36,721 nt of DNA from IMG/VR virus record IMGVR_UViG_3300032294_000354, positions 1-36,721 of that record; one strand, 5' to 3'. Each line of letters opens with the position of its first letter. Positions within the stretch are counted from its first letter, which is position 1. The notes below the pieces were generated by a model. It was not told the DNA's origin, did no database searches, and saw nothing but the letters and a program-made list of their open reading frames with translations. Below, in pieces: positions 14,855 to 36,721 of the stretch. Position numbers and translations under genes: made by a program. The DNA is from a virus.

Positions 14855-15301
14855 ATGGGCAAAATTAACAGCAGGGCAAAGGGTGCAGCAGGGGAGCGTG
14901 AATTAGCGAATTATCTTCGCGAGCAGGGATGGCAGAAGGCTCGCCGTAGTCAGCAATACGCTGGCAATCCAGAGGGTGGGAGTGGAGATGTGGTGTGTGG
15001 GAATTTCCCATTTCATATAGAGGGGAAGCGTTGCCAAGCTTTAAAGCCAGAGGAATGGATAGAACAGTCGAAGCGTGATTGCCCAGCAGGCAAGATCCCA
15101 GCGGTGTTCTTCCGCCGTAATGGCCGTAAGGAATGGCTTGTTATTTTAACCGCAGACAGCGCGTGCGAATTAGCTAGACAAATCGCGCCTGCCAATGTCA
15201 CTATCGAATATGCACCAAATCAACCAACACACACAACAGTCGCGAAAGGATTTTATGTACAAGAACAATCTGATCTCTCAACTATTAACCCCAACAAATA
15301 A
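14855..15301 (+). CDS. Holliday-junction-resolvase-like PD-(D/E)XK nuclease
   Basis: The 148-residue protein starts MGKINSRAKGAAGERELANYLREQGW, then RRSQQYAGNPEGGSGDVVCGNFPFHIEGKRC. This gives the Hjc/VRR-like set: Glu 14, Asp 45, and Glu-x-Lys at 56-58, followed by a helix and the strand KIPAVFFRRNGRKEWLVIL. It should cut branched or structured DNA during recombination or packaging. No Shine-Dalgarno is seen; TAAAAC stands six bases before the ATG with a TCGACG further upstream, so it may be a further leaderless start, though a poor one. Confidence 0.75.
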   Translation: MGKINSRAKGAAGERELANYLREQGWQKARRSQQYAGNPEGGSGDVVCGNFPFHIEGKRCQALKPEEWIEQSKRDCPAGKIPAVFFRRNGRKEWLVILTADSACELARQIAPANVTIEYAPNQPTHTTVAKGFYVQEQSDLSTINPNK

Positions 15302-15377
15302 GAATCTGTTTTCAGTCCTAGTCCAACTCACACCTGACACAAAAACCAAAACCAAAAAAAAGAAAGGTACGAAATAA
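15255..15377 (+). CDS. Possible 40-residue basic protein
   Basis: An ATG at 15255 has AAGGA four to five bases upstream and the frame runs to a TAA that abuts the next gene's ATG. The product (MYKNNLISQLLTPTNKNLFSVLVQLTPDTKTKT...) ends in a Lys-rich tail. It overlaps the resolvase gene by 47 bases. Support is the ribosome site and exact abutment; against it are the low-complexity tail and size. Confidence 0.35.
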   Translation: MYKNNLISQLLTPTNKNLFSVLVQLTPDTKTKTKKKKGTK

Positions 15378-16022
15378 ATGAGCCTAACACTAAGTGAATC
15401 GGCAAAAGCAACGGAACGTCAACTGCCAGAGGCAGGATCGACGATGGGAGTCTTGGTCCAATTGATTGACATGGGACTCCAAGAAACCAATTGGGACGGC
15501 GAGAAGAAGATGTCTCCCAAAGTGAGATTGACCTTCGAATTGCCTGACCAGGTGATTGAGGGAGAGGTGGTGGAGAACGGCAAAACCACAAAGGTTACCA
15601 AACCTATGATGGTTAGTCTTGAGTTGACTCGCTCGCTAGGGGAGCGCGCAACACTCCGCAAACATCTTGAGTCCTGGCGCGGTGCAGCCTTCACGTCGAA
15701 GGAGCTGGCCTCGTTCAGCCTCAAGAATCTGCTTGGCAAAGCAGCCCTGCTTACATTGATGCACAAAACCTCGCAGGCAGGCAGGCAGTATTGCGCCATC
15801 AATGCGATCAGCAAGTTGCCCAAGGGCATGACTGCTCCCAAGGAGTCGGTTGGCTCGCAGATATTCTACGAGATTGAGAGTGGTCAGAACGAAGTCTTCG
15901 CTGCTCTTCCAGAGTGGCTACAGGACAAGATTCGCGCCAGCAAGGAGTTCCAGATGGCAGCAGGGAAACCTACCGCCAGCAAGGCTGAACTTGACGCAGA
16001 CGGCAACCAGGTTCCGTTTTAA
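15378..16022 (+). CDS. Single-strand DNA-binding-like protein (OB-fold type)
   Basis: The 214-residue product matches a conserved phage protein type placed next to recombination nucleases: LPEAGSTMGVLVQLIDMGLQETNWDGEKKMSPKVRLTFELP (five-strand OB-like barrel), then LELTRSLGERATLRKHLESWRGAAFTSKELASFSLKNLLGKAALLTLMH and ALPEWLQDKIRASKEFQ. It probably coats ssDNA in replication or feeds the adjacent RecB-like nuclease; the ssDNA role is from fold pattern and context, not from a diagnostic motif. The ATG directly follows a TAA. The acidic C-terminal tip (AELDADGNQVPF) resembles SSB tails used for protein contacts. Confidence 0.65.
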   Translation: MSLTLSESAKATERQLPEAGSTMGVLVQLIDMGLQETNWDGEKKMSPKVRLTFELPDQVIEGEVVENGKTTKVTKPMMVSLELTRSLGERATLRKHLESWRGAAFTSKELASFSLKNLLGKAALLTLMHKTSQAGRQYCAINAISKLPKGMTAPKESVGSQIFYEIESGQNEVFAALPEWLQDKIRASKEFQMAAGKPTASKAELDADGNQVPF

Positions 16023-16027
16023 ATTAT

Positions 16028-16849
16028 ATGGCACTTACTATTACCAGTAAGGAGCCATCGACAGCTAGACTTGTTCAAACCGAGTCTAGCGGTCATTGGT
16101 ATACCGAAGACGGAAAATCTGCTCACGTTGTAATTGGGAAGAACGGCAACGAGCGAAATACAACTGTGGCAGATGCCAGGAAGATGGGTTTATATCCTAG
16201 CGTCACTTCGATTTTGTCTATTTTGGATAAGCCCCAATTGACCAACTGGAAAATTGAACAAAGTATCATGGCATCGCTTACCTTGCCAAAGGAGGAAAAT
16301 GAAACGCTCGAAGATTACGCTCGAAGAGTGGTTAAGGACTCTAAAGAGTCAACATCGAAAGCAGCTGAGCATGGCACGCGAATGCACGAACAAGCCGAGA
16401 ATATCCTCATGGGACGCGCTGTGTGTAAAGATGAAGATCTCCAGCCCTACATCGCGACCTTCAAGAAGTGGGCGGACGAAAACGTAGAGAAGACCTACTG
16501 GTGCGAGAAGGCTCTGGTTGGCGCAGGATACGCTGGTCGCTGTGACGCATATGTGAAGCTTAAAGGAATTGGTGACGCGATCATCGATCTCAAAAACCGC
16601 AAGGTGAATCCCAAATATGATCCGTTCTATGAAACCTCAGACTGTCCGCAGTTGTGGGCCTATAGGACAGCGAGCGAGAATCCCAAGGCAGCGTGCGTAT
16701 CCATCGTGCTTGCTTCGAATGATTCGAGCAAGCTGATGACAAGGGTGTGGGAAGATGACGAGCTGTACCAAGCTGGGATCGCATTCAATGCCCTCTTGAG
16801 GGTATGGGCTTGGGTAAAAGGTTATACCCCTCCTGGGATGAAGTTATGA
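16028..16849 (+). CDS. RecB/lambda-exo-like PD-(D/E)XK exonuclease
   Basis: The 273-residue protein contains the RecB-family nuclease series: YPSVTSILSILDKPQLTNWK near 56-75, AAEHGTRMHEQAE with His 120, Glu 160 (YWCEKALVGAGYAGRCDAYV) and Asp 173, the catalytic Asp 187-x-Lys 189 (IIDLKNRK), and the closing QLWAYRTA (Gln 208, Tyr 212). Next to the SSB-like gene it should provide 5'-end resection for recombination. There is no annealing-protein gene of Red-beta type in sight unless the preceding protein serves. It overlaps a 23-residue ORF by ATGA. Confidence 0.82.
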   Translation: MALTITSKEPSTARLVQTESSGHWYTEDGKSAHVVIGKNGNERNTTVADARKMGLYPSVTSILSILDKPQLTNWKIEQSIMASLTLPKEENETLEDYARRVVKDSKESTSKAAEHGTRMHEQAENILMGRAVCKDEDLQPYIATFKKWADENVEKTYWCEKALVGAGYAGRCDAYVKLKGIGDAIIDLKNRKVNPKYDPFYETSDCPQLWAYRTASENPKAACVSIVLASNDSSKLMTRVWEDDELYQAGIAFNALLRVWAWVKGYTPPGMKL

Positions 16850-18056: not shown

Positions 18057-18241
18057 AGCTAGGAAAAATAACATTTGGAAAATCAAAGCCAGCACCAAAG
18101 ATGGTTCTTGTGGATATAACTTTTGACGATAAAACTGGAAATGAATTATTTAAGGCAGGCTTAAAGCTTTTGAAGGCTGACAGAGATGCCGTCATTGAGT
18201 ATGTCATCAAGAGGGCATTGTCATATTCTGTAAAGAAATGA
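18053..18241 (+). CDS. Small basic protein, unknown
   Basis: The 62-residue product is basic at the start (MKLGKITFGKSKPAPKMVLVDITFDDKTGNELFKAG) and ends in an amphipathic helix (DRDAVIEYVIKRALSYSVKK). The arrangement of two strands and a helix could be a small DNA- or RNA-binding fold of the ribbon-helix kind, but no diagnostic residue is visible. ATGA overlaps bind it to both neighbours. Confidence 0.6.
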   Translation: MKLGKITFGKSKPAPKMVLVDITFDDKTGNELFKAGLKLLKADRDAVIEYVIKRALSYSVKK

Positions 18242-18918
18242 AGCGCGCATTAGTCACTCAAGCATTCGGAGATGATTGGCAGAAGATTTTAAGCATTACT
18301 CAGCCTAGGATGGAAGCGTACGCAAAGAAGTACGCGATTGACTTCATGGCAATTGATAAGCCAGTTACTCAGCCAGTTCAATACTCGAAGCTGGCAATCG
18401 GAAACATTATGCTCGCCAGGGGTTATGAGCAGGTCATGTTCTTGGACGCTGATGTGCTTGTGACAAACGACTGCGAGGATCTTGGTGGTCCTGACTCTGA
18501 TGGCAGTCAGCACTTCTTCTGCGCATTTGACGAGGGAGAGTTTCTGGATAGGAAGCAGGGGATGGTGGATCTTGCGAAAGGTTTTGGCGGAAAGATCACG
18601 CCGAGGTTCTACGTCAATACTGGCGTATTCGTAGTGAGCAATAAGTTCCTTGGCCTATTCTCATGCCCTCCGTTTGGTTGTTACCCCAACCATTTTGGCG
18701 AACAAACCTGGATGAACATCCAAGCGCATTTGTGGGGCATGGAGCTGACTCCGCTCGACCCAGCTTACAACTGCATGACCAGCGTCGAATCCCATTTTGG
18801 ATTGGATAGGTACAAGGATGCCTATATTATCCACTACGCTGGACAGTCGAATGATCTGGTTAAGTTAGCTGGCCAGATCCAAGAAGACGATGCCAAGCTG
18901 AAGGAAGCTGGACGATGA
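18238..18918 (+). CDS. GT8-like glycosyltransferase (GT-A fold)
   Basis: The 226-residue enzyme has the nucleotide-sugar signature of GT-A transferases: LVTQAFGDDW at the start, YSKLAIGNIMLARGYEQVMFLDADVLVTND with the metal-binding Asp-x-Asp at 70-72, FYVNTGVFVVS (acceptor side), GEQTWMN (Glu-Gln pair) and YIIHYAGQS at the end. This order matches GT8/glycogenin-like retaining enzymes. It is complete and short for the family. Target is unknown: lipopolysaccharide, virion proteins or modified DNA. A second, GT-B enzyme lies at 21955. Confidence 0.8.
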   Translation: MKRALVTQAFGDDWQKILSITQPRMEAYAKKYAIDFMAIDKPVTQPVQYSKLAIGNIMLARGYEQVMFLDADVLVTNDCEDLGGPDSDGSQHFFCAFDEGEFLDRKQGMVDLAKGFGGKITPRFYVNTGVFVVSNKFLGLFSCPPFGCYPNHFGEQTWMNIQAHLWGMELTPLDPAYNCMTSVESHFGLDRYKDAYIIHYAGQSNDLVKLAGQIQEDDAKLKEAGR

Positions 18919-19133
18919 CCTTTGTCAAGGTGGTCGAGGAGGCTGGGGCATGGAGGATTCATACCCTTGCAGGCAATGTGATCGGACCGCGCCTACATGG
19001 TGCAAGGCCACCAGAAGGATTGCCACCATTGCAGGATATCTTTGAAACGAAGAGCGAGGCGCAGGCTGCTGCGATGCTTTGGAATACATACGCACATTGG
19101 GTAGCAGCCAATCGCAAGAAGAAGCGTCGATGA
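18915..19133 (+). CDS. Small protein, unknown (72 residues)
   Basis: The product reads MTFVKVVEEAGAWRIHTLAGNVIGPRLHGARPPEGLPPLQDIFETKSEAQAAAMLWNTYAHWVAANRKKKRR: a short beta hairpin, a Pro-rich turn, one helix and a basic end. It is linked by ATGA to the glycosyltransferase before it and to the gene after. The strand-turn-helix form recalls small phage DNA-interacting proteins, but I do not recognise it. Confidence 0.62.
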   Translation: MTFVKVVEEAGAWRIHTLAGNVIGPRLHGARPPEGLPPLQDIFETKSEAQAAAMLWNTYAHWVAANRKKKRR

Positions 19134-19447
19134 TATCCACGCAACTAACTAAGGGCGATTACGACGAGAGGCTACAACAGCTTGCTGGCGAAGTTGCCAT
19201 CCAGGCGATTAAGGACCTTCGCATGCTACGAAGGAGGGGGATTGTGTGCGGTATGAAGCTTGCGCCAGATTGGAGGGACAAGATGATCAATGATGCCTGG
19301 GAGTACAGGAACACGGCAGAGGTGAAGCGACTGCTGAAGGATTTTAGGAATGGAACGATTGGGTGGTGGTGCAGGGCTGCTGGGATTAGGATCGGCAACA
19401 AGACGCTCCTTCGTAGGATGATGGAGGAGAACTATGCAATTTGTTGA
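19130..19447 (+). CDS. Helical basic protein, unknown (105 residues)
   Basis: The ATG at 19130 overlaps the previous stop (ATGA); a longer in-frame ORF from 19079 is less likely. The product MISTQLTKGDYDERLQQLAGEVAIQAIKDLRMLRRRGIVCG... is helical with many Arg and Trp, ending WWCRAAGIRIGNKTLLRRMMEENYAIC. It could be a small DNA-binding protein. A strong GGAGGAG near its 3' end serves the next gene. Confidence 0.62.
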   Translation: MISTQLTKGDYDERLQQLAGEVAIQAIKDLRMLRRRGIVCGMKLAPDWRDKMINDAWEYRNTAEVKRLLKDFRNGTIGWWCRAAGIRIGNKTLLRRMMEENYAIC

Positions 19448-19586
19448 TTTCATTTCGGACGTATTCAGGGTTGTGGCATGGATTGTTTTGATCTTCTCAA
19501 TACTCATTTCGATCCTGGCATTGAGCGCGTACATAGTCTTACAAATAGTTGACATCATAAAGGAGGTTCTAAATGGAGGAAAATAA
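19434..19586 (+). CDS. 50-residue single-membrane-span protein
   Basis: GGAGGAG stands four bases before the ATG. The product MQFVDFISDVFRVVAWIVLI continues FSILISILALSAYIVLQIVDIIKEVLNGGK: one long hydrophobic helix (about residues 13-40) with few charges before it and an acid/base mix after. It overlaps the gene before by 14 bases and the oxygenase gene after by 14 bases and carries the AAGGAGG for the latter. Function is unknown; small phage membrane proteins often act in exclusion or lysis timing. Confidence 0.68.
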   Translation: MQFVDFISDVFRVVAWIVLIFSILISILALSAYIVLQIVDIIKEVLNGGK

Positions 19587-20142
19587 GTTCATTCAAAAGA
19601 CGCTTACCGCATCCGTGGATCGGTACGTCCTAACGCCAAGCCAATGCGACATGATCCGAAACGATGCCGAGGTGATCGGTATGAAGCGCGCGACTGTGTT
19701 GAAGAAGAACGGAAAGACTAGGAATTCATTTGCGCGTACCTGCTCCTCCTGCTGGGTTCCGATGTCGCAGCATTATAAATGGCTGTACGCGATAATGGGC
19801 GAACTTACTGCATCGATTAACAGCGAGTACTGGAGATTTGATATAACTGGAGCGCAGCAGTTCCAGATCCTAAGATACAATCCGCTCCAGCAGTTCTGGT
19901 GGCACTTTGACACATTCTCTGGAAGTGACCGCAAGCTTACGGCGGTGGTCAACTTATCCGCTCCACATGAGTACCTGGGCGGAGGCTTGCAGGTGAAGGC
20001 GGACATAGACAACGCAAGGTTTATCCGCGAGCAGGGTGCGGGGTGCTGGTTTCCGTCTTACATCGAACACAGAGCGCGTGCGCCGATATGGGGTACACGC
20101 TGGGTGTTGGTGGCTTGGTATACTGGTCCTAACTGGAAATGA
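19573..20142 (+). CDS. 2-oxoglutarate/Fe(II) oxygenase (PKHD type)
   Basis: The 189-residue protein shows the double-stranded beta-helix of prolyl-hydroxylase-like enzymes: AQQFQILRYNPLQQFWWHFDTF with His 111 and Asp 113 as iron ligands, RKLTAVVNLSAPHEYLGGGLQV, then GAGCWFPSYIEHRARAPIWGTRWVLVAWYTGP with distal His 166 and Arg 176, which should bind 2-oxoglutarate. Phage members are thought to hydroxylate proteins or DNA, or to modify host metabolism; the substrate is not visible. AAGGAGG precedes the ATG by seven bases. It is followed by ATGA. Confidence 0.82.
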   Translation: MEENKFIQKTLTASVDRYVLTPSQCDMIRNDAEVIGMKRATVLKKNGKTRNSFARTCSSCWVPMSQHYKWLYAIMGELTASINSEYWRFDITGAQQFQILRYNPLQQFWWHFDTFSGSDRKLTAVVNLSAPHEYLGGGLQVKADIDNARFIREQGAGCWFPSYIEHRARAPIWGTRWVLVAWYTGPNWK

Positions 20143-20555
20143 GAGGTTCGAGCGGTATGCATGAGAGCGATACGGACATCGCCAACGAGAAGCGTATTGT
20201 AGAGGCGTTTGCCGATCATTGCGGTGGCAAGGCTAAGTATATGCCTAAAGCCTATCCATTCGATGCGATGATTCTAAGGGGTGATAAGTACGCATTTGCT
20301 GATGCCAGGAAAACTAGCTATGAGATTGGCAGATTTCCAACGCGATGCCTATCGCTCCAAAAGTATATATCCCTAAAGTTATACGCTGCATTCGCGCCCA
20401 CGTTTTATGTGATCGAGTGGGCGGATGCCAGGACCTATTACGAAATCAAGGAGGACAGCAAGCTCCCCATATTCTACATGTCAAGAAACAGCGGTGACCC
20501 TAGAGATAATGAACCATGTGTTCAGATTCCGATTGCTGACTTCAAAAGATTTTGA
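20139..20555 (+). CDS. PD-(D/E)XK-like protein with altered active site
   Basis: The 138-residue product follows a known small phage fold: NEKRIVEAFADHCGGKAKYMPKAYPFDAMILRGDKYAFADARKTSYEIGRFPTRCLSLQKYISLKLYAAF...FYVIEWADARTYYEI. In active relatives the second strand ends Glu-Val-Lys; here it reads Asp-Ala-Arg-Lys, so the catalytic Lys is displaced or lost while Asp in FDAMI is kept. It may bind DNA without cutting it or use the next Lys. The start at 20139 keeps the ATGA coupling; an ATG at 20157 is possible. Confidence 0.62.
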   Translation: MRGSSGMHESDTDIANEKRIVEAFADHCGGKAKYMPKAYPFDAMILRGDKYAFADARKTSYEIGRFPTRCLSLQKYISLKLYAAFAPTFYVIEWADARTYYEIKEDSKLPIFYMSRNSGDPRDNEPCVQIPIADFKRF

Positions 20556-20596
20556 TACAAACAATCTATGACATACACATCTAACTTGCTTCGCTA

Positions 20597-21226
20597 ATGG
20601 CAACGCTCAACGAGAACATCCCATCCTTCAAGGGAATGGTGAGAAAGTCATTCTTCACTAAAGACGAAGCGGACAGGGAGGAATTCTACAACGTCTATGT
20701 ATTTGCCTTGCAGTCTTGCCCTGGAACCATCCTAACCTTTCATGTGATGACTGACTCAGGGATGGTGCGATCCCGCGTTCCGCTATCAGAAATTTATCTG
20801 GATAAACCCACCAACGATATCCCTTTCAACTACAAACAGCTTTGGGATTGCTTTAGCGAGAACGTGACTGTGACCGAGTATAGCTTCCTAGCCTACCATC
20901 GCGCACAGATCCTACTTAGGGACGCGACCAAGGTGTGGGGAACTTACTTGTTCACAGTTGATTGGTTTAATAATCCCTACAGCGATGAGCCGTCCGATTA
21001 CAAATGCGGTCACGTCTTCGCTGGCGATGATGGGTACTTGCTGTGCATGCCCAATAACCGAATCTTCTGGCGCGACTCGAATTGGGTTACCAAGAAGTTG
21101 CCAGACAACTTAAAGCAGTTTCGAGTTGATACCGAACTGCCCAGCGTAGAGAATCAGAGTGACAAGTGGGTGACGGAGGATACGGATTCGTTTTACTATG
21201 ATCTTCGCAAGGAGGAGACAACGTGA
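20597..21226 (+). CDS. Conserved phage protein of unknown function
   Basis: The 209-residue product has a distinctive pattern I associate with hypothetical proteins of aquatic phages: MVRKSFFTKDEADREEFYNVYVFALQS, FHVMTDSGMVRSRVPLSEIYLDKPTNDIPFNYKQLWDCFSENVTV, TYLFTVDWFNNPYSDEPSDYKCGHVFAGDDGYLLCMPNNRIFWRDSNWVTK, SDKWVTEDTDSFYYDL. It is rich in aromatics and looks like two beta domains. No catalytic motif is clear. A 41-base gap precedes it, and I see no Shine-Dalgarno; its gene end is overlapped by a GTG start. Confidence 0.75.
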   Translation: MATLNENIPSFKGMVRKSFFTKDEADREEFYNVYVFALQSCPGTILTFHVMTDSGMVRSRVPLSEIYLDKPTNDIPFNYKQLWDCFSENVTVTEYSFLAYHRAQILLRDATKVWGTYLFTVDWFNNPYSDEPSDYKCGHVFAGDDGYLLCMPNNRIFWRDSNWVTKKLPDNLKQFRVDTELPSVENQSDKWVTEDTDSFYYDLRKEETT

Positions 21227-23219: not shown

Positions 23220-24161
23220 ATGATCACACCACAACAAAAAGCAGAATCGGTAGTCGGACCAGTAGAATGGCAGTCGGAACATCACGGCCTATGCCGTTGC
23301 CCAGGTGAGGCTGCGCACACCAGCAATACGAGAGTGAGGGACACAACTGTATTTGTTGACTCAGTCCCAACGATCTTCTGCTGGCACACAAGTTGCCAAG
23401 CATTCAGGAGTGAGGCGAACTATAAGCTGCGCAAACTAATTTTAAACGATCCGCTGTACAGACCGCTTGTTCCGCCGATGTCAACCAGCGGAACTAATCC
23501 GATGAAGCTGGTGATTGAGAAGGATGCTGAGAGTGAGATAATCCAGCGAATCGCAGTCATTGCACAATCCAACCGAGCAAGGTACTTGGCACATTATAAT
23601 TGGGACCCAGCCGATATGTTTGACCAATCGCCAGCAAGAGTTGGTGATGAGCCAAGCGATCAGTACAAAACATTTGTTTCGCTATTCCAACCTAACGACA
23701 TCGTGTGGATCGGAGCAGTCAAGGATAGTGGCAATCATCCGCAAAACTTCCGCGCTGCTTCCGAGTGGTTGAAGTTGGATGAGCCAGTGGGGCAGTTCAT
23801 TACTGGATCGGCATTCAAGGAGGGAACGATCAGCAGGTCGAATGATAATGTTGAGGTTCGCAGATTCCTGGTGGTGGAGAGTGATGAGCTGTCGAAGGCA
23901 GAGATCGGCGCGGTGTTCCAGCTTATGCGCGATCTATTCAAGATGAAGCTTTATGCGGTTGTCGACACGGCAGGCAAGAGTCTTCATGGTTGGTTTGATG
24001 CCATACCCAATCCTGAGTGGGAGAAGCAATTGAAAGCGTTCTTGGTTCCGATGGGGTGCGACCCCGCAACATTTAAACCCAGCCAACCTGTGAGGGTTGC
24101 TGGAGCAATGAGGGATGAAAAAACACAGAGCCTGCTTTGGTTCTGCAAGGAGGGGAAATAA
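23220..24161 (+). CDS. AEP-type primase with N-terminal zinc-binding region
   Basis: The 313-residue protein begins with a likely zinc site (Cys 25, Cys 27, His 33 ... Cys 54, His 56, Cys 59) as in primases. The catalytic part shows the archaeo-eukaryotic primase series: motif I at FLVVESDEL (Glu 220, Asp 222), a helix, the strand YAVVDTAGKSLHGWF with the Ser-x-His at 254-256, and the later basic VRVAGAMRDE. It should make primers (RNA or DNA) for replication. It lies directly before the RepA-like ATPase, as in plasmid and phage primase-helicase pairs. No separate DNA polymerase gene is seen, so its own primer extension plus host polymerase would be needed. Confidence 0.72.
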   Translation: MITPQQKAESVVGPVEWQSEHHGLCRCPGEAAHTSNTRVRDTTVFVDSVPTIFCWHTSCQAFRSEANYKLRKLILNDPLYRPLVPPMSTSGTNPMKLVIEKDAESEIIQRIAVIAQSNRARYLAHYNWDPADMFDQSPARVGDEPSDQYKTFVSLFQPNDIVWIGAVKDSGNHPQNFRAASEWLKLDEPVGQFITGSAFKEGTISRSNDNVEVRRFLVVESDELSKAEIGAVFQLMRDLFKMKLYAVVDTAGKSLHGWFDAIPNPEWEKQLKAFLVPMGCDPATFKPSQPVRVAGAMRDEKTQSLLWFCKEGK

Positions 24162-24162
24162 T

Positions 24163-25179
24163 ATGATCGAGCCAGCAGTAGCATTAGGACTGAAACCATC
24201 TGTGGACCAATGGCCACCGATTAAAACGTATAGTGAATTGCTGACCGATAACATCAAAGAGCCAGATGTGCTTATCGAGGGAATATTGCACCAGGGGGGT
24301 AAGCTGCTCCTTGGTGGAGGGAGTAAGGCGTTCAAGAGCTGGAGTCTGATTGACCTCGCGCTGTCGCTACACTCAGGCACTCCTTGGTGGGGGCAGAAAT
24401 GTACCAAGGCCAAGGTGCTGTTCATTAACTTTGAGATTCAGGAATGGTCGTTCCGCTCGCGTCTCGCTGACGTAATCGCAGCCAAGGAATTGAATGGGAA
24501 GGTGGATGACTTCGATGTGTGGACGCTCAGAGGATATGCAGCCGACTTGACATTGATCCGCCCAATCATCGAGAAGCATATCGAGGGGCGAGGATACCAA
24601 GCGATTATACTTGACCCTAACTATATGTTGATGGGTGACCGCGACGAGAACTCCGCTGGGGATATGGGTGGACTCATGAACGAATTCGAGTACTTGGCAA
24701 CTCGTTATAACTTGTCAGTAATCCTATCCCATCACTTTTCCAAGGGTAATAAGTCCAGCGCAGAGGCGATTGATCGGTTTAGTGGCAGCGGTGTCTTTGC
24801 TCGCAATCCAGACTCGCTTGTAGTACTTACGGCACATGAGGAGGATGAGAAGACGTTCACCTGTGAGATGACCCTGCGTAACTTCCCACCTGTCGATCCG
24901 TTCGTAGTGCAATGGAAGTACCCCATGTTTAGCGTCAACTATAACCTGAACCCTGATGAGCTTAAACAAACTGGTGGAAAGAAGAAGCTGGTAGGCGATG
25001 CAAGGCTGTTAAAGGAGATGGGTTCACGCGAGTTCACGGCCTGCGACCTGTTCCGATTTGTGCAGGAAAAGTTCCAAGTTTCGGAGTCAACCGCCAAAAG
25101 GCATGTGAAACGCATGACACAAGCTGGCAAGATGCTCAAGGAGAATGGGTTATATAGCGCGAATCAGTCGGTTTTTTGA
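24163..25179 (+). CDS. RepA-like RecA-fold ATPase / replicative helicase (AAA_25 type)
   Basis: The ATG at 24163 has AAGGAGG nine bases upstream; an in-frame ATG 48 bases earlier lies in the primase gene. The 338-residue protein carries a Walker A variant GGGSKAFKSW (residues 51-60), usual in this family where Phe replaces the second Gly, then VLFINFEIQEWSFRSRL, a Walker B strand YQAIILDPNYML, and the sensor stretch LSVILSHHFSKGN. The C-terminus (ACDLFRFVQEKFQVSESTAKRHVKRMTQAGKMLKEN) is a winged-helix-like DNA-binding end. It should be a hexameric helicase loading with the adjacent primase. An iteron-like segment begins two bases after its stop. Confidence 0.8.
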   Translation: MIEPAVALGLKPSVDQWPPIKTYSELLTDNIKEPDVLIEGILHQGGKLLLGGGSKAFKSWSLIDLALSLHSGTPWWGQKCTKAKVLFINFEIQEWSFRSRLADVIAAKELNGKVDDFDVWTLRGYAADLTLIRPIIEKHIEGRGYQAIILDPNYMLMGDRDENSAGDMGGLMNEFEYLATRYNLSVILSHHFSKGNKSSAEAIDRFSGSGVFARNPDSLVVLTAHEEDEKTFTCEMTLRNFPPVDPFVVQWKYPMFSVNYNLNPDELKQTGGKKKLVGDARLLKEMGSREFTACDLFRFVQEKFQVSESTAKRHVKRMTQAGKMLKENGLYSANQSVF

Positions 25180-25180
25180 A

Positions 25181-25225
25181 GTGTCAATTCGCGGTGTCAA
25201 AATGGGTTCTTCTACACTAGTGTCA
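25181..25225. repeat. Iteron-like GTGTCA repeats with a 10-bp palindrome (candidate origin)
   Basis: GTGTCA occurs at 25181, 25194 and 25220, so the steps are 13 and 26 bases (one register skipped), and an inverted copy TGACAC lies at 25354. The third copy overlaps the perfect palindrome ACACTAGTGT (25214-25223). The block starts right after the RepA-like gene in the largest non-coding interval (25180-25449). Phased short repeats beside replication genes are what origin or repressor-binding iterons look like; this is inference. Confidence 0.5.
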
Positions 25226-25235
25226 TTCCTATAAT
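25207..25235 (+). promoter_or_regulatory. Consensus -10 overlapping the palindromic operator
   Basis: TATAAT at 25230-25235 is a perfect -10. At 17 bases upstream only TTCTTC (25207-25212) is present, a weak -35, so an activator or the palindrome 25214-25223 between the two elements may control it. A transcript would start near 25242 and meet the hairpin at 25265-25300, giving a short RNA of about 60 bases or reading on into the small genes. Confidence 0.45.
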
Positions 25236-25264
25236 ATAAAAGAACCAGAACCCACGGAGGAACC

Positions 25265-25300
25265 AAGGGAAAGGGACTCCTTAGTCCGTCCCTTCCCCTT
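25265..25300 (+). terminator. Imperfect GC-rich hairpin downstream of the replication genes
   Basis: AAGGGAAAGGGAC (25265-25277) can pair with GTCCCTTCCCCTT (25288-25300) with one bulge on each side, around the loop TCCTTAGTCC. It is followed by TCACC and not by a T-tract, so it may be a weak terminator, an attenuator or part of an origin. The rest of 25301-25413 is GC-rich and contains CACCGC three times (25373-25398) with no credible gene. Confidence 0.5.
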
Positions 25301-25413
25301 TCACCTGCGGTGTTCCGAAGTGAATCTTCAAAGCAGCGGGACCAGAAAAGAAATGACACGGCAGGGGTGGCATCACCGCTTCCACCGCCTTCACCGCCCC
25401 AACCTGCCAAGGC

Positions 25414-25443
25414 TTGGTGATGGGTGGATGGGTGTGGTACAAT
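25414..25443 (+). promoter_or_regulatory. Extended -10 leaderless-type promoter
   Basis: TGGTACAAT (25435-25443) is an extended -10 (TG-n-TACAAT) ending six bases before the ATG at 25450; TTGGTG at 25414 is a poor -35 at 18 bases. The predicted transcript begins at the ATG. No Shine-Dalgarno is visible for the gene at 25450, which supports leaderless initiation. Confidence 0.5.
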
Positions 25444-25449
25444 GTGCGA

Positions 25450-25593
25450 ATGAATAACTCAAAGCCAGGACTCTACGCCAATATCAACGCTCGCCGTAAG
25501 GCTGGAATCAGCAGAAGCAAAGCGAAAAGCACAATATCCCCCAGGGTGTATAAGGTGATGAAAGCGAAAAAGGGTGGATTCGCGCCACGATAG
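25450..25593 (+). CDS. Small basic 'PGLYANI' phage protein (47 residues)
   Basis: The product MNNSKPGLYANINARRKAGI continues SRSKAKSTISPRVYKVMKAKKGGFAPR. The start PGLYANIxARR is a conserved pattern I recognise from many short phage proteins of unknown function, always very basic. It probably binds nucleic acid. The gene has no Shine-Dalgarno but an extended -10 six bases before its ATG. It overlaps the next gene's GTG start by 20 bases. Confidence 0.75.
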   Translation: MNNSKPGLYANINARRKAGISRSKAKSTISPRVYKVMKAKKGGFAPR

Positions 25594-25849
25594 AGAGCTG
25601 CTCAAGCAGGCATACCGCTTCCTTGCCCTGCTACAGCGCGAGAATGCCCAGCTACATGCCGTTCTCAGGCAGCTAGGGCAATTGGTCGATGATATGAACA
25701 ATAACTGCTCCTACGAGGTTTTCGAGCATGAGTGGGCTGAGATCACCCTAGCGATGGCCAAGTTGTCAGAATTCTTTTCCAGCCATCAGAAAGATCTGGC
25801 AGAGCTAAAGGATTCAGATATATTCAATGACGAGGTTGATGAAGTATGA
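25574..25849 (+). CDS. Coiled-coil acidic protein, unknown (91 residues)
   Basis: A GTG start at 25574 gives MDSRHDRELLKQAYRFLALLQRENAQLHAVLRQLGQLVDDMNNN, a leucine-rich helix, then a second helix and an acidic end (ELKDSDIFNDEVDEV). No other start codon before 25695 fits. It overlaps the basic protein before it by 20 bases and the next by ATGA. It could dimerise and partner the adjacent basic proteins. No family recognised. Confidence 0.6.
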   Translation: MDSRHDRELLKQAYRFLALLQRENAQLHAVLRQLGQLVDDMNNNCSYEVFEHEWAEITLAMAKLSEFFSSHQKDLAELKDSDIFNDEVDEV

Positions 25850-26082
25850 GTACACAAGACTTACCCTGCAATAGTCCGAGGCGCACTCCTGGTGCGAACA
25901 AGAAGTTTGTAGTAAGGGCTTGCCAGAATGGGCAGTCCAAGACCATTAGGTATGGTGACCCCAAGATGACCATTAAGAAGGGTAACCCTGACCGCAGGCG
26001 TAGCTTCAGGGCTAGGCACAAGTGTGACTCAGATAAGCCCAGCAAGCTAACCCCACGTTTCTGGTCATGCAAGAATTGGTAA
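25846..26082 (+). CDS. DUF5754-like basic phage protein
   Basis: The 78-residue product KKFVVRACQNGQSKTIRYGDPKMTIKKGNPDRRRSFRARHKCDSD...TPRFWSCKNW follows the pattern of a conserved phage family (KxYxVxVxxGGKKKxIxFGDxxM...RRKSFRARHxC...ARYWSCKxW), which I recall as DUF5754. Conserved Cys, His and Trp residues suggest a small zinc-binding or nucleic-acid-binding domain. It is coupled by ATGA to the gene before. Function unknown; family identification by eye only. Confidence 0.75.
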   Translation: MSTQDLPCNSPRRTPGANKKFVVRACQNGQSKTIRYGDPKMTIKKGNPDRRRSFRARHKCDSDKPSKLTPRFWSCKNW

Positions 26083-26086
26083 TTAG

Positions 26087-26275
26087 GTGAAAACTAAAAA
26101 GGCTTTAAAATCGACGTATTGCCACCCAGGAGCCTCGCCACGCGATCTTTGTAATGAGGACGGCAAAAGCATCATAAACCACAAGAAACATCAAGAATCG
26201 CCTTTAAACGCCAAATCCAAGCTAATCGACCTTGAATTAGGCAATAGAGCCTGCTGCGTTTCAATAGGCAAGTAA
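26087..26275 (+). CDS. Possible small basic protein, GTG start
   Basis: A GTG five bases after the previous stop opens a 62-residue frame (MKTKKALKSTYCHPGASPRDLCNEDGKSIINHKKHQESPLNAKSKLIDLELGNRACCVSIGK). Composition is natural, with four cysteines and two histidine groups, but there is no Shine-Dalgarno and no family resemblance. The frame ends just before the tandem-repeat spacer. It may be a decayed gene. Confidence 0.35.
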   Translation: MKTKKALKSTYCHPGASPRDLCNEDGKSIINHKKHQESPLNAKSKLIDLELGNRACCVSIGK

Positions 26276-26284
26276 TCTGATTTC

Positions 26285-26405
26285 TTGTCCCTTATGGGAC
26301 AAATTTGGATTTTGTAAATCCTAGATTTCCAATTTCGGATTTTTCTTCCTTATGGGACAATTTCTGATTTTTCCCTCCTTATGGGGAAGATTCTGTAGGA
26401 TTCTG
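26285..26405. repeat. Degenerate 29-bp tandem repeats at the convergence of two operons
   Basis: Four imperfect copies start at 26290, 26320, 26348 and 26377 (steps 30, 28, 29). Copies 1 and 3 share CCTTATGGGACAA followed by a T-rich half (AATTT.TGATTTT); copy 4 has CCTTATGGGGAA; copy 2 is the most changed. Copy 1 lies in the hairpin TTGTCCCTTATGGGACAA (26285-26302). The array is very T-rich and lies where rightward and leftward transcription meet, overlapping the end of the leftward gene. It could be a two-way terminator, a protein-binding array or an origin. Confidence 0.6.
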
Positions 26406-27871: not shown

Positions 27872-28603
27872 CTAGTTTGCCCTCGCAATCGCTAACGCTT
27901 TCTTTTGCTGCGAACCATGGGGCATAAACCCCACGATGACTGATCGGTCCGCGCGTTGACATAGTCCGCACGTTGCGCACGTTATATTATCGCGCGTTTG
28001 CGCGGGACAGATGACAACCTTTCGCCCTTGTGGGGTTGTTCGGTTTACAGGATTCTGATCAGGCAGAATGGTGCAAACAGGACCTATGCCAAGGGCTGCG
28101 AGTTTGTCCGCATGATTTAATCCATTCGCGCTTAGATTAATCGTGAACCCTTGCGCGTTTGCTTCCTTAATCGCTGCACGATTGCTTTGAATTGGTCCCT
28201 CCTGCCCATCCAATACAGGCTTATGCGTATAGGTGAACCCCTTGCGCCCTTGGTTTGCGTTGACCAAGTCCTTCAGCAATTCTAAGGCAATCTCCTGATT
28301 TTTTCCTGCCAAGTCTCCTGCTTGGTTATGTCTCCAAAGTTGACCCCTTGGGAGAGAGCGCAGTTCGCCAAGGAATACTTCCCAAGCGTTGCCCCTTTCT
28401 CCCCTTGAGACTTTGTCCCAATGCCATTTCATGGGGCCAATCACCATGCACCCATTGCCCTTTAAAGGGCAGGAGTCAGGGCAGGTGAATTGAGGGGAGG
28501 TTGAAACAGGTATGGGGCCTGTTTTCGCGTTGTCGCTACTTCTGGTTAGGTGGAAGGTTGGCTTGGGATCATTCAACCCTATAATTTTAGCGGGTCCCTT
28601 CAT
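27872..28603 (-). CDS. Cys-rich conserved phage protein (Gp37/Gp68-like?)
   Basis: The start at 28603 overlaps the previous stop by ATGA (an earlier in-frame ATG at 28615 is inside that gene). The 243-residue product has ordered cysteines: SPQFTCPDSCPLKGNGCMV (three at 40-55), LWRHNQAGDLAG, GFTYTHKP, GFTINLSANGLNHADKL, then KVVICPAQTRDNITCATCGLCQRADRSVIVGFMPHG. This pattern is widely conserved in phages and plasmids. The cysteines suggest a metal or Fe-S centre, and GDL/THKP/NLSAN loops suggest a TIM-barrel-like enzyme; resemblance to radical-SAM-like Gp37/Gp68 is possible but unproven. Confidence 0.75.
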   Translation of the reverse strand: MKGPAKIIGLNDPKPTFHLTRSSDNAKTGPIPVSTSPQFTCPDSCPLKGNGCMVIGPMKWHWDKVSRGERGNAWEVFLGELRSLPRGQLWRHNQAGDLAGKNQEIALELLKDLVNANQGRKGFTYTHKPVLDGQEGPIQSNRAAIKEANAQGFTINLSANGLNHADKLAALGIGPVCTILPDQNPVNRTTPQGRKVVICPAQTRDNITCATCGLCQRADRSVIVGFMPHGSQQKKALAIARAN

Positions 28604-28848
28604 GCTACACCCCACACCTTTTGCTTAATCCATTGCAGGACTTTGTCCGCATAGTAGCAGGTTGTGGAGTTGTTAAGGAACTCCAGAATCTGCCGTTCAT
28701 GGATTCTTCCGAACGCGCCATCGTTTAACAACTCATCGGTGAAGTAGTCGCGAATCTCAAGTTTCACGAACTCACCGCAGCTTTTTGCGCGAATCACTCC
28801 ACCTGCGCAATACTCTCCAATCTTCCATGTTTTCGTTCTTTTTGTCAT
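28600..28848 (-). CDS. Small protein with conserved strand pattern, unknown (82 residues)
   Basis: AAAGGAG lies eight bases before the ATG. The product MTKRTKTWKIGEYCAGGVIRAKSCGEFVKLEIRDYFTDELLNDGAFGRIHERQILEFLNNSTTCYYADKVLQWIKQKVWGVA has a four-strand first half and a helical second half. Related sequences with WKIGEYCxGGVIxxxxxxxxxxIxxxDxxT exist in phages next to the Cys-rich gene that follows here, so the two may work together. Confidence 0.7.
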   Translation of the reverse strand: MTKRTKTWKIGEYCAGGVIRAKSCGEFVKLEIRDYFTDELLNDGAFGRIHERQILEFLNNSTTCYYADKVLQWIKQKVWGVA

Positions 28849-34518: not shown

Positions 34519-34546
34519 TTGACTTTATAGCTACATCCGCTTGTAT
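34519..34546 (+). promoter_or_regulatory. Leaderless-type promoter for the methyltransferase
   Basis: TTGACT (34519-34524) lies 34 bases before the ATG at 34553. With 16-base spacing the -10 is TTGTAT (34541-34546); with 17 it is TGTATT (34542-34547), a better match. No Shine-Dalgarno fits. It starts four bases after the stop of the preceding gene, so it could let the methyltransferase and capsid genes be expressed apart from the terminase promoter. Confidence 0.58.
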
Positions 34547-34552
34547 TGGCGG

Positions 34553-35083
34553 ATGGCAGTACCAGTAATGCGCGATGCATTCCAAGCCGAAGGCTTGGCA
34601 AAACTTTGTAAGTGGGCAAATCAGAATGGCGCGATTGGCAAGTGTGTTGAGATTGGATCATATAGTGGCGAGGGTACTGTGGTACTAGCTGATTATTTTA
34701 AAGAAGTACTGGCAGTAGATCCCTGGGAGAATGGGTACGATCCGAACGATGTGGCAAGCCACCAATGCCCAATGGAAGATGTTTTTAATGCCTTTACCGA
34801 AAGAACCAAGCCTAAGGGCAACGTAACCTTCTCTCGCGGTAAGAGCCTGGATGCGCTTGAGTTTGTTGCCGACGGATCGCTTGACATGGTTTATGTTGAC
34901 GGAGATCATAGGTACGAGGGTGCAGTTGCCGACATCAAAGGATGGTTGCCCAAGCTAAGAAAGGGTGGATGCATGACAGGCCACGACTTCAGCTTCCCAG
35001 CAGTAAGACAGGCACTCTCAGAGACTTTCACAGGCGATTACTTGGCCTTATTCCAGGGCGATAGCTGGGGGTACATAGTATGA
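34553..35083 (+). CDS. Class I SAM-dependent methyltransferase
   Basis: The ATG at 34553 was chosen over an upstream TTG because it fits the promoter spacing. The 176-residue enzyme has motif I VEIGSYSGEGTVVLADY, an acidic strand end VLAVDPWENG, and the later block SLDMVYVDGDHRYEGAVADIKGWLPKLRKGGCMTGHDFSFP, typical of Methyltransf_24 enzymes that act on small molecules or sugars. Its place in a virion operon is odd; it may modify a virion glycan or small molecule. Overlaps the next gene by ATGA. Confidence 0.8.
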   Translation: MAVPVMRDAFQAEGLAKLCKWANQNGAIGKCVEIGSYSGEGTVVLADYFKEVLAVDPWENGYDPNDVASHQCPMEDVFNAFTERTKPKGNVTFSRGKSLDALEFVADGSLDMVYVDGDHRYEGAVADIKGWLPKLRKGGCMTGHDFSFPAVRQALSETFTGDYLALFQGDSWGYIV

Positions 35084-36451: not shown

Positions 36452-36721
36452 ATGGCTAATGTAACTACTGGATCTGTCTCTGCGCAGTTCCAAACGTATT
36501 TTTCCAAGATGCTCTTGGAACGTGCGTTACCCTTGCTCCAAATGGAGCAGTTTGCAATGAAGGTGGCGTATCCTTCGAAAACTGGCGGAAATCGTACCAT
36601 CCGCTTCTTCAAATTTGATAATCCTTCGATCAGCAGCATTGTTGGTCTGTCGGAAGGCACGACTGTTAGCGATGGCTCGGATCAACGTCAGTTGACCCTG
36701 TCCACAGTTGAAGCGACCCTC
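36452..36721 (+). CDS. Major capsid protein, N4-gp56 family (5' part; continues at 1)
   Basis: The ATG at 36452 has AAAAGGA about ten bases upstream. The first 90 codons start MANVTTGSVSAQFQTYFSKMLLERALPLLQMEQFAMKVAYPSKTGGNRTIRFFKF, with the helix-turn and 'PLPxxxG-xTIRFxKF' plan of the family N-arm. The last 123 bases equal bases 1-123, and the frame continues from 124 to 882. See the entry at 1-882 for the rest of the protein. Confidence 0.9.
   Translation, partial: MANVTTGSVSAQFQTYFSKMLLERALPLLQMEQFAMKVAYPSKTGGNRTIRFFKFDNPSISSIVGLSEGTTVSDGSDQRQLTLSTVEATL
36599..36721. repeat. Terminal direct repeat, right copy
   Basis: Identical to bases 1-123. Because the capsid frame is continuous over this join, the molecule can be circularised by removing one copy. 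Confidence 0.93.

Follow-up and report, generated by a model that had tools for sequence, protein, structure and literature searches.

How does a tailed phage that carries no dedicated DNA polymerase gene begin to copy its genome? The question is raised by a bacterial virus from a lake, IMG/VR virus record IMGVR_UViG_3300032294_000354, of which positions 1 to 36,721, the whole stretch of 36,721 nucleotides that was analyzed, are referred to here as the window. At one locus, genes for an archaeo-eukaryotic primase (AEP) and for a RepA-related helicase are followed by short repeats (iterons), an AT-rich tract and a stem-loop. We consider it probable that this element is the vegetative replication origin of the phage, and that the helicase serves as its initiator. 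The evidence comes from the identities of the two genes, the anatomy and conservation of the element, covariation within the stem-loop, linkage between the iterons and a winged helix of the helicase, and the absence of other polymerases. The ends of the window are identical (1-123 equals 36599-36721, a 123-bp terminal direct repeat), and the genome is therefore a 36,598-bp circle with the overlap left in, or is circularly permuted. The parts of the module are as follows.

23220-24161, plus strand: probable AEP-type primase, 313 amino acids, with an N-terminal Cys/His zinc region (CRCPGE...FCWHTSC) and AEP core motifs
24163-25179, plus strand (open reading frame start at 24115 or 24163): RecA-fold (AAA_25/RepA-related) replicative helicase, 338 amino acids, with P-loop GGGSKAFKS
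24997-25161, plus strand: C-terminal winged-helix domain of the helicase, amino acids 279-333, with the recognition helix at 308-320 (AlphaFold2 (AF2) model and a weak HTH_24 match)
25181-25225, plus strand: iteron array, GTGTCA at 25181, 25194 and 25220 (13 and 26 bp apart)
25230-25239, no strand: AT-rich tract, TATAATATAA here and usually TATATATATA in relatives
25253-25322, plus strand: two-tier stem-loop, 70 nucleotides, with a 3-bp base stem, a 3x3 internal loop, a covarying 5-bp stem and a GC-rich inner stem
25354-25359, minus strand: further GTGTCA copy, inverted, role unassigned

The same order of primase, helicase, repeats, AT-rich tract and stem-loop is found at about 210 IMG/VR loci and in every relative with enough sequence. 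Where relatives keep the region, a short word is repeated three or four times after the helicase stop codon, and the AT-rich tract and the stem-loop come next. An earlier note on this DNA had reported the three GTGTCA copies in a 13-bp register; their positions are exact, and we count the array as real because it is conserved in relatives. Taken from the window genome alone, the array is moderately unusual. GTGTCA is not enriched overall (11 copies on both strands versus 16.7 in shuffles), five of the 11 copies fall within 25115-25359, and the chance that three among 11 random sites would cluster as tightly as the array is P ~6e-4; other 6-mer triplets are also present in the circle. The AT-rich tract is likely to be a duplex-unwinding element. 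A palindrome, ACACTAGTGT at 25214-25223, and a TATAAT at 25230-25235 had also been pointed out, and both are present, but neither is conserved: relatives usually read TATATATATA where the window has TATAAT, and the palindrome is replaced in them by ACACTATGACA or a similar sequence. The palindrome was therefore rejected as an operator. TATAAT was rejected as a promoter for the same reason and because it lacks a -35 partner in a sigma-70 scan, in which no promoter passes at the element.

The stem-loop is supported by compensatory change. In its base stem and 5-bp stem, 98% of the cells are paired (RNAalifold and direct pair counts). Two-sided changes occupy 61 cells, compared with 16 +/- 3.5 in shuffles, a control that ignores relatedness; in a second control that corrects for relatedness, sliding the alignment by one to three columns lowers the stem score from 0.59 to 0.22 or less. 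The GC-rich inner stem (25265-25277 paired with 25288-25300, topped by a 10-nucleotide loop) was also detected as an inverted repeat, and was left out of the formal covariation count because MAFFT aligns it poorly. The 3x3 internal loop reads GGA/GAA in the window and fits GNA/GNA in 29 of 33 unique hairpins, the others having AAA/GAA (two) or tandem G-A/A-G (two). Sheared G-A pairs can form only with the plus-strand sequence, so the structured strand is the plus strand, as DNA or RNA. DNA can hold such G-A motifs stably. Of some 700 pairs predicted in unconstrained folds, only 11 are G-U, a rarity that leans toward DNA but is not proof. Among the IMG/VR matches listed for an 18-nucleotide core of the hairpin, all that could be judged lie 85-99 bp past the helicase stop codon. 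Among 84,980 genomes of bacteria and archaea, the same core had 20 chance-like matches, with no helicase relative close to any of them, and an Rfam search with the stem-loop returned nothing at the gathering threshold.

An indication of what reads the iterons is that the recognition helix and the iteron word change together. The words differ by clade (GTGTCA, CTGTCA, CT[T/A]TCA, CTGACA/CTGCCA and CTGAA), and copies inside one array switch in concert. Recognition helix STAKRHVKR pairs with GTGTCA, STFYRHLKR or STAYRYLKR with CTGTCA, STFYRYLKR with CT[T/A]TCA, RTVYRYIKR with CTGACA, and RT.YKYI[KE]R with CTGAA. A tree of 69 primases shows 12 changes of helix class, 13 of word class and 13 of the two jointly, for classes that were defined after the data had been seen. 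Only two of the 69 genomes fall off the diagonal of this pairing, one of them having a mixed array. The genome designated L042 is instructive: its primase is 92% identical to that of L050, which has CTGAA iterons, its winged helix is 79% identical to that of the window and 47% to that of L050, and its array is GTGTCA. Judged from these sequences, the helicase's own C-terminal winged helix is likely to be the iteron binder, and the linkage lends support to a C-terminal domain that would set origin specificity, as in SaPI Rep.

The winged-helix assignment agrees with the AF2 model, in which amino acids 279-333 are arranged as helix-helix-helix-strand-strand, with a predicted local distance difference test (pLDDT) score mostly of 76-89 in this block. 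Among relatives, the domain diverges far faster than the helicase core. The core matches Pfam PF13481 (AAA_25) at E 4e-26 and positions 337-552 of phrog_2597, a 747-position family annotated "DNA primase", at E 4e-58. Foldseek with the AF2 helicase model (mean pLDDT 64, with the ATPase core and C-terminal domain better) retrieved KaiC/Rad51 RecA folds at E ~5e-8. The connection to RSF1010 RepA (1g8y) runs through a fused homologue, L258 from phage EFC-1, which matches it at 1.7e-5; the window helicase alone reaches only 0.78.

The product of 23220-24161 is likely an AEP primase, as judged from its motifs and relatives. Across 29 relatives, E220-x-D222, K253-S-x-H256 and D281-x10-R292 are invariant, as is the Cys/His set C25, C27, H33, C54, H56 and C59. 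The motifs are spaced exactly as are the catalytic residues reported for S-2L PrimPol, E85, D87, K115, H118, D146 and R157 (PMC8065100). An hhalign comparison of the 29-relative profile with the AEP domain of fused phage primases gave E 1.2e-8 over 98 columns, and the window primase weakly matches positions 214-316 of phrog_2597 (E 0.0046). The adjoining AEP primase with a zinc region and RepA-related helicase of the earlier note are thus borne out by open reading frames, motifs, and phrog_2597 and AAA_25 matches alike. Because both proteins map onto phrog_2597, they are split halves of one protein that is fused in other phages. Other searches with the primase were negative: a Pfam scan of the 29 relatives matched no AEP family, a profile search of PDB with the alignment gave chance matches only, and no relative was found in the 84,980 bacterial and archaeal genomes or among INPHARED phages. 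Foldseek with the AF2 primase model returned nothing at E <= 0.001, and this result was not used as evidence because the pLDDT of the model is 65.

The fused genes provide a comparison beyond the uncultured relatives. Members of phrog_2597 (FP_Lugh, Paenibacillus Hayley, Enterococcus EFC-1 and Javan streptococcal prophages) follow one model of an AEP core and then an AAA_25 helicase, onto which the window pair maps as well, and share with the window a homologous AEP core, a RepA-type helicase, a C-terminal helix-turn-helix and, downstream, iterons, a stem-loop and usually an AT-rich tract or palindrome. They differ in having one gene with an N-terminal PriCT-2, whereas the window has two genes and a zinc region instead. 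We examined up to about 420 bp 3' of the fused gene in 14 phage and prophage records (L256-L269). All 14 have a downstream stem-loop stronger than shuffles (z -3.6 to -7.9), and 11 have a repeated 7-mer that exceeds all 40 shuffles. An AT-rich tract or palindrome is also common, and this origin layout is unannotated in those records. Among Javan streptococcal prophages, four genomes with GGGACA/GGACA repeats share the helix SEKTIRRWI or a near variant, and genomes with ATTTTC carry others. Between Javan470 and Javan46, identity is 90% in the core and 40% in the C-termini, and the repeat words differ. The Streptococcus phages are a second, independent case of helix-word linkage.

As for the enzyme that would copy the genome, PHROGs and Pfam scans of the window's larger open reading frames found no DNA polymerase. 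Neither the window genome nor 15 relatives of 36-42 kb contain DNA_pol_A, DNA_pol_B or Pol III alpha, whereas control genomes matched. The earlier claim that no polymerase is present therefore stands for these families, but is unsettled for the AEP, because in NrS-1, S-2L and BFK20 the AEP itself polymerizes DNA. Dependence on host Pol III is also not unusual among phages. Of the plasmid-like replication that had been proposed as well, the origin module without a dedicated polymerase is well supported.

The putative mechanism would proceed as follows. With its C-terminal winged helix, the helicase would bind the GTGTCA iterons that immediately follow its gene; it would open the adjacent AT-rich tract and load as a RecA-fold ring. 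Unwinding would expose the plus strand, which would fold into the two-tier stem-loop. The AEP primase would then be recruited to the stem-loop to lay the first primer, and this primer would be extended more likely by host DNA polymerase III, although extension by the AEP itself is possible.

This scheme has precedents. RSF1010 combines RepA, an AEP primase, iterons and primase-recognized hairpins (PMC4234260, PMC4538821), and its IncQ-type oriV shares with the window a RepA-related RecA-fold helicase beside an AEP primase, iterons, an AT-rich tract and a hairpin. In RSF1010 it is host Pol III that elongates the primers, and the absence of a phage polymerase here would be consistent with the same arrangement. 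The comparison with RSF1010/IncQ drawn in the earlier note is therefore a fair functional analogy, but it does not extend to every part. RSF1010 has a separate RepC, whereas no separate RepC-type initiator was found among the scanned open reading frames of the window, where the binder appears fused to the helicase. RepB' is without a zinc motif (PMC4538821), whereas the window primase has its invariant zinc region, and the 13-bp register and 6-bp core of the window iterons differ as well. The SaPI Rep and SCCmec Cch2 helicases bind iterons directly downstream of their own genes via a C-terminal domain (PMC7581432). They belong to other helicase families (Cch2 is D5-like) and have another primase arrangement; the window helicase is neither superfamily 3 (SF3) nor D5-type, but has the RecA/KaiC fold of AAA_25. 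Plasmid pRN1 encodes, in ORF904, an AEP protein with a C-terminal winged helix, and its origin function depends on a stem-loop located 3' of that gene (PMC4234260). That stem-loop is about 100 nucleotides long, starts 54 bp past the gene and is kept more in structure than in sequence. However, pRN1 is an archaeal plasmid with an SF3 helicase, a fused gene and no iterons. Its authors noted a similar stem-loop in phage BIP-1 (PMC4234260), and a noncoding origin element is known in S. thermophilus phage Sfi21. By analogy, the window system would work like RSF1010, SaPI Rep and pRN1 while belonging to none of them. In the literature covered by a partial search, no description of a helicase-borne origin reader or of the two-tier stem-loop was found for this phage family.

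Several observations weigh against the origin reading. The hairpin has z = -1.96 in the window genome alone, although strong covariation establishes that the hairpin predicted in the earlier note is real. The winged helix adjoins the iterons, so that one recombination tract could move both and inflate their linkage, and the helix and word classes were set after the fact. RSF1010 has two single-strand initiation (ssi) hairpins, whereas only one conserved stem-loop was found in the window origin, and the AF2 model of the primase is poor. The plus-strand element may act as a structured RNA. Finally, a GC-skew minimum had been expected near 25180-25450, but the detrended cumulative skew has its maximum there, at 25206. 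Because this extremum sits by the gene-orientation switch, skew is uninformative on the origin and was rejected as evidence for it.

Four rival explanations were weighed. The same origin could be served by an AEP that is a PrimPol and also copies the genome, which would make it a phage-encoded polymerase. We regard this as possible but doubtful. The sole phage polymerase of NrS-1 and of S-2L is an AEP PrimPol (PMC8065100), BFK20 gp43 is active as a primase and as a polymerase (PMC4538821), and the window AEP appears to carry the catalytic motifs of such enzymes at the S-2L spacing. These PrimPols likewise join an AEP to a helicase, but they are fused proteins related in sequence to the window AEP through motifs only. 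In its AEP core, which is short and divergent, the window primase has no assignable steric-gate residue, and RSF1010 RepB', the partner of a related RepA helicase, makes primers only (PMC4538821). It is quite unlikely that the joint change of repeat word and winged helix reflects only the exchange of adjacent DNA in one piece, without binding. The two lie 20-100 bp apart, and recombination clearly occurs (L042, L064 and L034). However, all copies carry the same new word, for which a single crossover is insufficient unless selected, and the winged helix outpaces the core in divergence. That whole arrays switch in concert, and that the pattern recurs independently in fused-gene Streptococcus phages, argues for function.

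The stem-loop might instead act as RNA at the end of the transcript of primase and helicase, as a terminator, attenuator or small RNA, and the repeats would then be operators. An element that closes the operon on its coding strand, and that is followed by a short T tract in some relatives, would fit this explanation; covariation cannot separate RNA from single-stranded DNA, and in pRN1 a terminator lies next to the stem-loop of the origin (PMC4234260). We nevertheless judge it unlikely, given that G-U pairs are rare among compensatory changes, the T tract is inconsistent, no plus-strand terminator is called and no promoter is present at the element, no Rfam family applies, and in pRN1 the comparable stem-loop is required for replication but the terminator is not (PMC4234260). 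Least probable, and in our view very unlikely, is that the repeats are operators for winged-helix regulation of downstream genes and that replication starts elsewhere. Small genes do follow on the same strand (25574-26275), and winged helices are common in regulators, but the element has no sigma-70 promoter, the array lies behind rather than before its own gene, and SaPI Rep and Cch2 have this same layout with an origin function (PMC7581432).

The replication module is flanked by a glycosyltransferase-like gene on one side and by a run of small genes on the other. The following features lie in its surroundings or elsewhere in the window.

25574-26275, plus strand: three small genes beyond the putative origin; two encode basic proteins, and one of the three has matches to phrog_7595 (5.6e-15) and, weakly, to DUF5754
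26285-26303 and 26342-26360: inverted motif TTGTCCCTTATGGGACAA and variants, repeated at the gene-strand switch; terminator-like, possibly bidirectional
27872-28615, minus strand: 247-amino-acid DUF7227 protein (Pfam 1.4e-89) that matches the C-terminal half of the 529-amino-acid phrog_2554; conserved, function unassigned
18238-21226 and 34541-35083: auxiliary genes for a glycosyltransferase of family 8, a 2-oxoglutarate (2OG)-Fe(II) oxygenase, a protein of the phrog_3704 "ferredoxin" family and a methyltransferase-like protein
14855-16849: in a row, RusA resolvase (14855-15301), a phrog_862 protein without known function and a phage exonuclease (16028-16849)

The last row is likely a recombination module and could make concatemers once the origin fires. 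Terminase, portal and tail genes were also found in the scans of the larger open reading frames.

We give about even chances to a broader interpretation, in which these phages would represent a distinct and widespread class of replicator. It would be defined by a RepA-type helicase with an exchangeable, origin-reading winged helix that swaps together with the iterons as a specificity cassette, and by a plus-strand DNA hairpin with sheared G-A pairs as the AEP loading site. The class would encompass the split-gene phages, which are uncultured and from freshwater, and the fused-gene phages and prophages of Firmicutes. No cultured member of the split-gene group was found, and the link to cultured Firmicutes phages makes the model directly testable there. 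For a large group of phages, the analysis predicts the initiator and, clade by clade, the word that it binds, and it delimits a putative minimal replicon of about 2.1 kb. With helix and word changing as a pair, origin specificity would be readable in the sequence itself, which hints at ways in which co-infecting relatives may avoid or create cross-replication.

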